In this document: positions 8,878-36,040 of the stretch, in pieces
Numbering within the stretch: position 1 is the stretch's first letter
Layout of the letters: every line of letters starts with the position of its first letter
Source of the DNA: Candidatus Gastranaerophilales bacterium
GTDB lineage: Bacteria; Cyanobacteriota; Vampirovibrionia; Gastranaerophilales; JAILCC01
Length of the DNA: 64,000 nucleotides
Reading direction: 5' to 3'
Assembly (NCBI GenBank): GCA_028696075.1
Contig: JAQVHS010000005.1
Span: 70,656 to 134,655 of the forward strand
Program-made: the position numbers and the translations under genes
Notes under the pieces: generated by a model
The model's database searches: none
The model's input: only the letters and a program-made list of their open reading frames with translations
What the model was told of the DNA's origin: nothing

Positions 8878-8955
8878 ATACAAAGCCTAAATAGTAATGG
8901 GAGTATTGATACCATTATATTAAGTGTGTTTTAAAACTTTTACTTCCTCTGAATA

Positions 8956-9000
8956 GCGGATTTTTGCAAGGCTGACCGAACAAGGCGAGGGAATGCCGTC
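8956..9000. repeat. Dispersed repeat module A, copy 1
   Basis: This begins GCGGATTTTTGC and runs through GGCTGACCGAA to GGGAATGCCGTC. It is closely related to 27059-27105 and, in its core, to 27369-27397. It precedes the 131-bp element in the same order as at copy 2. Confidence 0.75.
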
Positions 9001-9091
9001 CAAGTGAGGAGAGTGGTGAAATGAAGCCTTTTGCTTTAGCAAAATGGCGGAATGAAATCCAAGCTCTACGAACTGCAAAAATTCAAGAAGC

Positions 9092-9222
9092 GGATTTTTG
9101 GGAGGGTGCCGTGTGAGGCAAAGCCGAACCCAACCCGTAAGAGCAATAGCCGAATTGAACGGAAACTTTTTCGTCAGAAAAATGTTGGAGTGAAATGGCA
9201 GGCTATGCACGCCCAAAAATCC
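9092..9222. repeat. 131-bp dispersed element with terminal inverted repeats, copy 1
   Basis: The ends are GGATTTTTGGG (9092-9102) and CCCAAAAATCC (9212-9222), an exact 11-bp inverted repeat. GTGC (9106-9109) and GCAC (9207-9210) extend the pairing inward. The inside is nearly identical to 27156-27286, which has exactly the same length. It may be a MITE-like or structured-RNA element. No transposase is present. A minus-strand open frame runs through it but is not credible as a gene. Confidence 0.85.
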
Positions 9223-9274
9223 AAGACAAGTATCGTTTTGTGAGAGGGGTAGACGCGCTGAAAAGCTTTTGTAC

Positions 9275-9280
9275 TATAAT
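9275..9280 (+). promoter_or_regulatory. Possible -10 box of the tRNA-Leu promoter
   Basis: TATAAT lies 41 bases before the mature 5' end of tRNA-Leu. The -35 region is not clear (nothing close to TTGACA 16-18 bases upstream). Confidence 0.35.
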
Positions 9281-9320
9281 AATGTTTAACAATCGTTGAA
9301 AATTTAATACCTATTTTGGT

Positions 9321-9401
9321 GTCGGTGTGGCGGAATGGTAGACGCATACGTTTCAGAGGCGTACGAGGAAACTCATGGGGGTTCAAGTCCCCCCACCGAC
9401 A
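9321..9401 (+). tRNA. tRNA-Leu (anticodon CAG)
   Basis: The acceptor arms GTCGGTG and CACCGAC pair perfectly. The anticodon stem TACGT/GCGTA encloses the loop TTCAGAG with anticodon CAG. A long variable arm (CGAG GAAA CTCA) marks class II leucine tRNA, and the T-arm is GGGGG TTCAAGT CCCCC. The total is 81 bases including discriminator A, and CCA is not encoded. The 3' end is repeated about 1.56 kb downstream, which marks it as an integration site. Confidence 0.95.
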
Positions 9402-9411
9402 ATTTTAAAAT
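9396..9411 (+). repeat. att-like direct repeat, left copy (tRNA 3' end)
   Basis: CCGACAATTTTAAAAT covers the last bases of tRNA-Leu and 10 bases beyond. An identical 16-mer occurs at 10955-10970. The two copies bracket the two-gene cassette. Confidence 0.65.
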
Positions 9412-9440
9412 AGACCTTCTAAAAGGTCTATTTTTATTTT
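9410..9440 (+). terminator. Intrinsic terminator after tRNA-Leu
   Basis: ATAGACCTT and AAGGTCTAT form a 9-bp stem around a 4-base loop, followed by a T-rich tract (9431-9440). Confidence 0.85.
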
Positions 9441-9580
9441 CCTCATTGGGGTTTAAAAGTTCAAGTGTAAAACCTTAATTTCTTATTAATAATTTTCGTA
9501 AAATAAACCAACTAATGTATTTAAAAAGTGTTTCTTAAGAGTATAATATTTCATGTGGTACTGCTGAAAGGTGTCAATTT

Positions 9581-10087
9581 ATGGAAGATAAACAAATTTC
9601 AGAACTTATAAGTGCCCCAAAAAAGATAATTAAAAATCCTAAAAAAGAAACAAAGTTGATTCAAGGTTCTTATAGAAATGATTTTGAACTTGCTCTGATT
9701 GATAATACAAAAGTAACATTCAAGGTTCATTTGCGTAAAAATAAAAAGTTTTCTGAGAATTTTTCAGTTATTTTGTCATATTTTGCCCCAGAACTTAATA
9801 AAGATATCTTTTTAGTACGATATAATGGCTCACATGGTATCCACAAAAATAAAATAATTGATGATGAAGTTTTAGGAAGTTTTCATATTCATAAAGCTAC
9901 TTCAGAAGCTCTCAGAGAAGGTTATAATGCAGAATGTTGGGCTTTTGAATCAAATGACTATAAAACATTTGAAGAAGCTGTTACAAGATTTTGGCAAGAT
10001 ATGAATATACAAGACGATATAAATAAATTCTTTGGAGATTATAAAGTAGTACAATTGTTTTTATTTGAAGAACAGGAGTCACGATGA
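9581..10087 (+). CDS. Cassette protein 1, DUF6978-like
   Basis: The 168-residue, lysine-rich protein has no signal peptide. It reads as a mixed alpha/beta domain with a HIH motif (GSFHIHKATSEALREG) followed by the segment YKTFEEAVTRFWQDMNI. This arrangement resembles proteins labelled DUF6978, a family without known function (recognition by eye, moderate certainty). The start has AAAGGTG about nine bases upstream, and a possible -10 (TATAAT, 9542-9547) lies in the leader. Its TGA overlaps the next start in ATGA, so the two are translationally coupled. The cassette is markedly AT-rich and sits between a tRNA-Leu terminator and a copy of the tRNA 3' end, consistent with horizontal acquisition. 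Confidence 0.75.
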   Translation: MEDKQISELISAPKKIIKNPKKETKLIQGSYRNDFELALIDNTKVTFKVHLRKNKKFSENFSVILSYFAPELNKDIFLVRYNGSHGIHKNKIIDDEVLGSFHIHKATSEALREGYNAECWAFESNDYKTFEEAVTRFWQDMNIQDDINKFFGDYKVVQLFLFEEQESR

Positions 10088-10842
10088 TTACAATTGATGA
10101 CGTTAAAAAATATATAAATACAGAAATAAAAATCAAGGAAAAACGTCCAAATATTTATCAAATTATAGCGCCATTTTTTCATGAAGACGGCGACATGGTT
10201 GAAATGTTCTTAGAAGTGAATCAAAACAATATGTTAAGATTTTGCGACTATGGTCTCACTGTAATGAAATTGTCATACTATTTAGAAGAGTTATCTAAAA
10301 CTAATCAAAGGGTCTATAATGAGATATTAAAAGAAAATTCTCTTGACCAAGAAAATGGAAATATTTTCTTAGATACAGATTTAGATAATTTAAATACTGA
10401 CTTTTTACATTTTGCCGAAACTTTGAGTAAAATATCAAGTTTAAAATATTTTGACTCTCATAGGCAAAAAAGCATATTTTACGATGTTCTTTCTGAATTG
10501 ATTTCCGATTCATTTAAAGATATTAATGTAAAAAAAGACTTCGTACCAATAAAAGAGTATCCTGAGAATAAAGTTGATTACGCTTTTGAAGGCAAAGAAC
10601 GGTCATTATATCTTTTTGGAGTCAAAGATAATAATAAAGCCTTAGATGTCGTTGCGTCTTGTTTAGAATTTAAACAAAAAGGCTCCAAGGCTCAAAGCGT
10701 TGTTGTTTATGATGATTTTTCAAAAATGAACTTAAGCACTAGAACTCTAGCCCGACTGCTTAGAAATACAGATAAACAATTTATGGATTTAACCCAATTT
10801 AAAGAAGAAGGACAAAATTATATATCAGGAATGATAGCTTAA
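10084..10842 (+). CDS. Cassette protein 2, DUF1828/DUF1829-like
   Basis: The 252-residue protein has an N-terminal part (residues 1-120) with the pattern YQIIAPFFHEDGDMVEMFLE then RFCDYGLTVMKLSYYLEEL, as in DUF1828 (target-to-conserved-glycine region, DxGxTxxxL). The C-terminal part (about 135-250) resembles DUF1829. Proteins of this type occur in prophages and mobile regions and have no assigned activity. It shares an ATGA overlap with cassette protein 1. G+C counted by hand over 10321-10440 is about 24 percent, lower than neighbouring genes (about 30 percent over 11401-11460). A two-component defence or toxin-antitoxin-like unit is an inference from this layout only. Confidence 0.75.
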   Translation: MITIDDVKKYINTEIKIKEKRPNIYQIIAPFFHEDGDMVEMFLEVNQNNMLRFCDYGLTVMKLSYYLEELSKTNQRVYNEILKENSLDQENGNIFLDTDLDNLNTDFLHFAETLSKISSLKYFDSHRQKSIFYDVLSELISDSFKDINVKKDFVPIKEYPENKVDYAFEGKERSLYLFGVKDNNKALDVVASCLEFKQKGSKAQSVVVYDDFSKMNLSTRTLARLLRNTDKQFMDLTQFKEEGQNYISGMIA

Positions 10843-10868
10843 AATCACTTTTTAGACTTTATAAGATC

Positions 10869-10952
10869 TTGCAATTTTTCAAAGAATAAAAAATTGTCTG
10901 GATTTCTGATTCCATTTAATAAATTAATGGCTAAAAGTTCAAACTTTGTCAC
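10869..10952 (-). other. Possible gene remnant on the minus strand near the right att copy
   Basis: The bases just before the right att repeat read on the minus strand as an open frame ending FFEKLQDLIKSKK and a TGA. The same frame stays open upstream across the repeat to about 11050 with protein-like composition (INLIYQILKLSEVTKFELLA). It has no convincing start codon with a Shine-Dalgarno sequence and may be the tail of a lost gene or chance. Confidence 0.25.
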
Positions 10953-10954
10953 CT

Positions 10955-10970
10955 CCGACAATTTTAAAAT
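10955..10970 (+). repeat. att-like direct repeat, right copy
   Basis: This is an exact 16-base copy of 9396-9411 (CCGACAATTTTAAAAT). It is preceded by GTTCAA and CACC-like remnants in the same order as in the tRNA T-arm, so the copy looks like a decayed tRNA 3' end rather than a chance match. Confidence 0.6.
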
Positions 10971-11089
10971 TTGATAAATTAAATTAATCCGACTTAGAAC
11001 CCCGGTTGTGTCTTTCGCCACAACGGCGGTTGCCGATAAATCACCGGCTAAGGCTCATGCTTTAATAATCTTTATGTTACAATGCAGGC

Positions 11090-11866
11090 ATGGATAAAAA
11101 AGTAAGATTAAATAAATATATAGCCTCCTGCACTGATATATCAAGACGTGCTGCGGATGAATTAATATCCCTGGGCAAAGTTAAAGTTAACGGCAAAATA
11201 GTGTCGGAACTCGGAATAACGCTCGGCGGCAAAGATACTGTAATAATAGACGGCAAGCCTATTGTGCCTCAAAAACATGAATATTATGCGTTTCACAAAC
11301 CTGCGGGCTATATAACGACAAAATCAGACCCGCAAAAACGCAAAACCATTTATAATATACTTCCGGAAAGCTTGAAATCTTTAAACCCCGCAGGAAGATT
11401 GGATAAAGATTCATCAGGTTTAATAATTTTGACCAATGACGGTGATTTGCTTTTGAAATTAACCCACCCAAAAATAAAAGTGGCAAAGGTTTATAAAGTA
11501 ACAATTAAAGGTAAATTAAGCCAGGGTGATATATACAAACTCGAAAACGGTATTGAAATTGAACCCGGCAAAGTTGCTTATGCGGAAGTTGAAATGCTTG
11601 AATACAAAAAAGGCATAAGCATGCTTAAGGTAACCCTTCACCAGGGCTATAACCGGCAAATCCGTAAAATGATGGAAAGCATAGGACATCCGATTCAGGC
11701 GCTTAAACGTATTTCACATGCGACAATCAATATTTCGGGGCTTGAAAAAGGTCAATATCGCAAGATAAATATTAAAGAATTGAAGAATTTAAATATATAC
11801 TTAAACAAAAAAATGAATGATTTGTATAAAAAAGAAAAAAAATCATGCGCTGAAACTCAACTATAG
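11090..11866 (+). CDS. rRNA pseudouridine synthase, RsuA/RluB family
   Basis: An S4 RNA-binding domain occupies residues 1-60 (VRLNKYIASCTDISRRAADELI, VKVNGKIV). It is followed by the synthase domain with the catalytic aspartate in PAGRLDKDSSGLIILTNDG and the RsuA/RluB/E/F motif GYNRQIRKMMESIGHPIQALKR. The enzyme isomerises specific uridines in rRNA. RluB (23S) versus RsuA (16S) cannot be decided by eye. The 258-residue length is normal. A TACAAT (11078-11083) lies only six bases before the ATG with no strong Shine-Dalgarno sequence, so the transcript could be nearly leaderless, though no good -35 is seen. Confidence 0.9.
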   Translation: MDKKVRLNKYIASCTDISRRAADELISLGKVKVNGKIVSELGITLGGKDTVIIDGKPIVPQKHEYYAFHKPAGYITTKSDPQKRKTIYNILPESLKSLNPAGRLDKDSSGLIILTNDGDLLLKLTHPKIKVAKVYKVTIKGKLSQGDIYKLENGIEIEPGKVAYAEVEMLEYKKGISMLKVTLHQGYNRQIRKMMESIGHPIQALKRISHATINISGLEKGQYRKINIKELKNLNIYLNKKMNDLYKKEKKSCAETQL

Positions 11867-35760: not shown

Positions 35761-36040
35761 ATATATTTATTTTTGTTAAGAAGATGGGATTAGGCTTAAG
35801 AGGTGAAAGGGTTATTTTGCCGTCATTGCGAAAATGCGCAAGCATTTGAAGCAATCCATAGGAAAGAAGTTGGGAAGTTAGGAAGCTAAGAAGCTGGGAG
35901 GCTGTGAAGTTGCAGAGGTTATTTTGCCGTCATTGCGAAAATCCGCAAGCTCGAGGCTCAATTATCCTACGTCGCCATAGAACGGTTTTGCCCTACAAAG
36001 CCTTGCCCTTCGGCAAGTCTTTTCAGGCTTCACACTCTGC
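35761..36040. repeat. Repeat region with CGTCATTGCG and AGCTTCC-type words
   Basis: Near-identical 35-base units at 35809-35843 and 35916-35950 (TTATTTTGCCGTCATTGCG core) flank AGCTTCC-type words (35865-35922; GAAGTTGGGAAGTTAGGAAG). The rest is a GC-richer tail with a hairpin near 36002-36017 (CTTGC/GCAAG). No gene is seen. Confidence 0.75.

Follow-up and report, generated by a model that had tools for sequence, protein, structure and literature searches.

The closest described counterpart of the two genes studied here is PDC-M24, a PADLOC entry in which a DUF6978 gene (here A) is directly followed by a DUF1828 gene (here B). PDC genes have been described as candidates (PMC11514479), and PDC-M24 itself is a candidate system only; in the literature searched we found no paper naming or testing it, with DUF1828 and DUF6978 mentioned in passing only. 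Two kinds of vehicle also serve for comparison: IS1595/ISXO2 transposons, one of which (L076) carries a passenger pair that shares 63% (A) and 77% (B) identity with ours, and elements or prophages at tRNA genes (for example, L091), with which our locus shares an insert that begins at a tRNA 3' end, lysogeny-type cargo and a bounding copy of the tRNA end. The window, a 64,000-nucleotide stretch of contig 5 in the 1.84-Mb genome of a gut bacterium related to cyanobacteria (order Gastranaerophilales), carries such a pair beside a tRNA-Leu gene. The best explanation of the locus as a whole, and in our judgement a fairly probable one, is a mobile PDC-M24-like pair inserted at the 3' end of tRNA-Leu(CAG). 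An earlier note, made from the sequence, had read the locus as a small integrated element, and this interpretation is largely supported; the kind of candidate was already known, and this member of it is divergent.

How close is the pair to PDC-M24? Gene A (9581-10087, + strand, 168 aa), a divergent PDC-M24A homologue, scores 28.9 bits against DUF6978 (PF22398), just below the Pfam cut-off of 29.6, and gene B (10084-10842, + strand, 252 aa), a PDC-M24B homologue with a PD-(D/E)XK-like C-terminal half, scores 63.5 bits against DUF1828 (PF08861), for which the cut-off is 22, in agreement with the family likenesses proposed in the earlier note. B also matches PADLOC's PDC-M24B (4.4e-12 and 3e-7), whereas A lies beyond the reach of the PDC-M24A models: it matched no PADLOC model, nor did the A proteins of its closest relatives, L076 and L116. 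A is linked to PDC-M24A by a chain of homology only, which runs to the A protein of L075 and from there to a phage A that matches PDC-M24A. The phage homologues match both PDC-M24A and PDC-M24B, and a pair from another cyanobacterium does so at 3e-85 and 1e-133, respectively. With its A protein out of range of those models, PADLOC would miss the system here. Judged by homology, the window pair is a divergent branch of the candidate PDC-M24 and not a called system, and the earlier suggestion of a defence-like pair holds to that extent.

AlphaFold2 gave confident models of A and B, with pLDDT values of 88.5 and 88.3. In A, the near-invariant residues are R52, R80-x-N82-G83 and H102-x-H104; its model matched no PDB fold, the sole match being a weak one in BFVD to an uncharacterised siphovirus protein, and sequence searches returned no credible relative of solved structure. 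In B, P30, D35-G-D37 and D55 are invariant, these acidic residues lying in the DUF1828 half, and the best Foldseek matches are SfsA, Cdn1 and Hjc (probability 0.89-0.99, and 0.97-0.99 at the top; E-values 1e-3 to 4e-2, global TM 0.24-0.38). Its C-terminal half follows the alpha-beta-beta-beta-alpha-beta succession of these PD-(D/E)XK proteins and keeps D165 in 39 of 40 sequences, but the TM values are low, the acidic position of the (D/E)xK motif is taken by Gly179 (Ala in 4 of the 40) and is never acidic, and the lysine is present in only 21. The canonical D ... (D/E)xK active site was not found in B across the 40 sequences, and on its model B appears PD-(D/E)XK-like without a canonical ExK. 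Neither A nor B matched a toxin-antitoxin family in Pfam. The conserved R/N/HxH set of A could nevertheless be an RNase-like active site, as might be expected if the two genes formed an addiction module and not a dedicated defence system, and they are two small coupled genes found on mobile elements, one copy on a viral contig adjoining an apparent HicA/HicB-like pair. We consider a toxin-antitoxin pair unlikely, however, given that B is about 250 aa long, lacks a DNA-binding antitoxin domain and is more strongly conserved than A, and that the pair is found repeatedly within or next to type I restriction-modification genes.

The pairing itself is conserved. A stands upstream of B on the same strand and the two overlap by ATGA, a translationally coupled arrangement already remarked on in the earlier note; in profile searches almost all of 58 loci have A immediately 5' of B, the gap between them ranging from -60 to +20 nt in 36 of the 37 measured, with the 4-nt overlap of the window in 15. 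Differences between the window pair and that of L076 stand at 43-45% for codon position 3 and 10-18% for codon position 2, and this concentration at position 3 indicates that both proteins are under purifying selection. Both genes are also compositional outliers, more AT-rich than their neighbours as the earlier note had observed: of the 51 window ORFs with 120 aa or more, these two rank lowest in both GC (0.280 for A, 0.285 for B) and GC3 (0.160 and 0.229), the window as a whole having a GC of 0.364. Homologues of B are absent from all 60 nearest relatives searched, within the phylum DUF6978 was present in only 9 of 386 genomes, and searches for plasmid homologues of the pair found none.

The target of the insertion, tRNA-Leu(CAG), occupies 9320-9402 on the + strand (ARAGORN, Rfam). 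The last nucleotides of the tRNA and the adjoining flank form one copy of the 16-mer CCGACAATTTTAAAAT (9396-9411, +; putative attL), and a second, identical copy lies 1.56 kb downstream (10955-10970, +; putative attR). The repeat described in the earlier note is thus confirmed, and these are its only two copies in the whole genome; a first-order Markov model puts the expected number of such recurrences within 3 kb at about 1e-5. The inserted stretch is about 1.54 kb long, and A and B are the only genes between the repeats. A terminator-like hairpin of 12 pairs with a T tail (9407-9434, +), already listed in the earlier note as a terminator, sits just 3' of the tRNA and overlaps the left repeat, and a promoter-like TTTAAA-16-TATAAT (9520-9547, +) precedes gene A, a consensus match only and of a kind whose frequency in the AT-rich cassette region is not much above chance. 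Purifying selection on both genes would be compatible with ordinary housekeeping genes, inherited vertically and placed by accident between 16-mers that recur by chance, but the absence of B from relatives, the outlying composition, the rarity of the repeat and the displacement of the tRNA flank described below make this account hardly credible. As a separate matter, 32 IMG/VR contigs contain the 16-mer, none of them in a tRNA context, and we rejected these occurrences as chance and not as phage att sites. An intergenic repeat family occupies window positions 8954-9318 and recurs in L137-L156, in pieces of about 60-160 bp with 74-97% identity; the genome contains about 20 partial copies, and several adjoin tRNA-Leu genes.

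What did the locus look like before the pair arrived? In the family members G001 and G002 the only shared part is the downstream pseudouridine synthase gene, which has no tRNA beside it in either genome. The window genome, however, contains a paralogous tRNA-Leu(GAG) at C5:19192 that bears on the question from within. Some 90 bp upstream of the two tRNA genes are 97% alike (the promoter region, 9229-9318, +), and about 87 bp of the downstream flank are 94% identical, except that at the CAG locus this flank is displaced by 1.56 kb to the far side of the cassette (10952-11038, +), where it represents the original tRNA-Leu 3' flank; elsewhere in the genome it is present only at the tRNA-Leu(GAG) locus, in two copies. 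Joined in silico, 9231-9411 and 10971-11100 give a sequence whose alignment to the intact tRNA-Leu(GAG) locus is nearly unbroken across the tRNA and for about 70 bp past it, and the empty-site junction of the CAG locus is predicted to read tRNA-Leu(CAG) ... CCGACAATTTTAAAATTTGATAAATTAAATTAATC. By this comparison of sequences, the tRNA-Leu(GAG) locus is an intragenomic empty site, paralogous and not orthologous, and the strongest evidence for insertion. In G002, tRNA-Leu(GAG) and tRNA-Leu(CAG) stand intact in tandem, about 115 bp apart (L048:2361-2641), whereas the distance is 4.4 kb in G001, where a long repetitive open region intervenes, and 60 kb in the window genome.

The right-hand junction is sharp. 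Only the last 9 nt or so of tRNA-Leu are recognisable in the right copy (10952-10970, 18 of 19 positions matching), where the likeness breaks off just upstream of CCGACA, whereas that of the flank persists at about 94% through 11038. The TTCAA/CACC letters that the earlier note took for remnants of the T-arm are unconvincing as such, having no support above chance level, and are probably a coincidence. The shared core, 16 bp when counted as exact identity, reaches 6-9 nt into the tRNA, which is shorter than in most tRNA att sites. Insertion at the tRNA end is nonetheless supported by the paralogous empty site, by the lack of B in 60 relatives, by the outlying composition and by the mobile and restriction-modification contexts of the homologues. 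Of the small integrated element in the earlier note, the insertion stands, while the step driven by an integrase is one that we infer.

Must a tRNA-directed recombinase have made the repeat? Beside the tRNA-Leu(GAG) of the window genome, its 3' end and flank are repeated as a 151-bp tandem copy, and related genera contain 200-225-bp partial copies of the same 3' end, which makes duplication without an integrase a real rival: the direct repeat could have arisen when the 3' region of tRNA-Leu was duplicated, segmentally or in tandem, the pair having come without any tRNA-directed integration, for instance in an IS1595 transposon that has since decayed. The pair's closest relatives are indeed transposon cargo, and one broken IS1595 transposase is present elsewhere in the genome. 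In the two closest MAGs (L076 and L077, both Gastranaerophilales) the pair lies immediately 3' of an IS1595/ISXO2 transposase, and L076:3623-8866 looks, from its sequence features, like an intact 5.24-kb IS1595-family transposon with restriction-modification-like and candidate defence cargo, having a 41-nt terminal inverted match, an 8-bp target duplication (ATAAATTA), an ISXO2-like transposase, an N6-methylase gene and the DUF6978-DUF1828 pair. The window is homologous to the cargo end of the L076/L077 transposon over 9486-10855 (+, 74% DNA identity), a segment that takes in the promoter region and both genes, starts about 40 nt past the transposase stop and ends 13 nt past gene B, before the transposon termini. 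Yet no IS1595 transposase, inverted repeat or 8-bp target duplication was recognised in the cassette, which is flanked by tRNA-end copies and does not qualify as an IS1595 element, and the 16-bp repeat coincides with both cassette ends. Proximity to tRNAs also recurs in unrelated hosts: among 41 loci, tRNA 3' ends face the pair within 300 bp in 3 clusters, as against 0.13 expected (P=1.8e-4). We regard the duplication account as possible but doubtful.

The tRNA-Leu(GAG) loci with partial copies come from three genera (L046:1806-2435, L047:6705-6729 on the - strand and L049:4500-4922). In L046 a truncated 5' end is interrupted by the palindrome ACAAAACGAT...ATCGTTTTGT, L049 is similar, and in L046, L047 and L049 a truncated 3' end follows 150-225 bp downstream. 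To judge from their arrangement, these partial copies suggest that small insertions or duplications have recurred at one tRNA.

The earlier note had proposed a survey of gene neighbourhoods, and homologous pairs do lie near tRNA genes, integrases and restriction-modification genes, in a transposon and in a prophage. In Pseudomonas phages the pair follows cI; on the viral contig with the HicA/HicB-like genes it sits between the repressor region and an integrase; and L091:6774-10311, from a Bacillota MAG, reads repressor, A, B, tyrosine integrase, tRNA-Arg, as at the end of a prophage. Among the other tRNA-adjacent homologues no second copy of the tRNA end was detected. We dropped a suspected serine-recombinase fragment in L118, placed between tRNA-Met and the pair, for which neither library nor BLAST searches gave support. 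The relative next in closeness to L076 and L077 is L075/L116, where the pair is placed between hsdS and hsdR in a type I operon, as it also is in the cyanobacterial L070; in L067 it lies behind hsdM/hsdS, and in L120 and L122 it adjoins hsdM. These hsd-linked pairs, together with the transposon copy that travels with an N6-methylase gene, would suit a type I restriction-modification accessory, such as a restriction modulator, that has been left here on its own; against this, no HsdR was found in the window genome and most homologues, those of phages included, have no restriction-modification genes nearby, and we hold the accessory reading to be quite improbable. A general defence-island check of 143 neighbouring proteins found defence families present and not dominant, so that the case for defence rests on the specific operon contexts; the majority of the distant homologues lie outside any recognisable defence island. 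On the whole the pair looks like a roaming defence module and not like an ordinary local gene pair.

We return to the preferred reading, a mobile PDC-M24-like pair inserted at tRNA-Leu(CAG). The cassette would have inserted exactly at the 3' end of the tRNA, restoring that end on the left and pushing the old 3' flank to the right, with a promoter region and the coupled DUF6978 (A) and DUF1828 (B) genes as its cargo. The pair itself is mobile in relatives and would move between hosts on IS1595 transposons, prophages, restriction-modification islands and tRNA-site elements. The earlier note had found no integrase, and we likewise found none in or beside the cassette; the genome encodes two tyrosine recombinases, both Xer-like in length, and several large serine recombinases away from the cassette. 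Unlike typical tRNA-site elements and prophages, then, the cassette has no integrase, spans just 1.54 kb and has a short repeat core. Most likely a prophage or other tRNA-integrating element brought it in as att-proximal cargo, the integrase and remaining parts of that carrier having been lost or having acted in trans, and such site-specific integration is, like an anti-phage function, something we infer. A distinctly unlikely variant is that the cassette is a minimal integrase-less tRNA-site element of short att copies and two defence genes, moved as a satellite by recombinases in trans, in a family where tRNA-Leu 3' ends repeatedly serve as such sites. As a working model, A and B might act as one complex on infection, with B, PD-(D/E)XK-like but with a noncanonical active site, sensing or binding nucleic acid, and A, with its conserved R/N/HxH set, serving as an enzymatic or regulatory partner.

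These comparisons join DUF6978 and DUF1828, neither of them of known function, in a single mobile module of two genes. It has several independent vehicles, and their range, from an IS1595 transposon and a prophage lysogeny region to a type I restriction-modification operon and a tRNA site, makes a strong and testable case for an anti-phage role. Present defence finders miss the divergent branch because their A models fall short. The use of a paralogous tRNA in the same genome as an empty site is a workable method where close relatives are unsequenced, and L091 offers a ready locus for probing a tRNA-integration origin of the pair. Elsewhere in the window, at 35810-35942, we also noticed a direct repeat of at least 26 bp (GGTTATTTTGCCGTCATTGCGAAAAT) whose copies are 107 bp apart.
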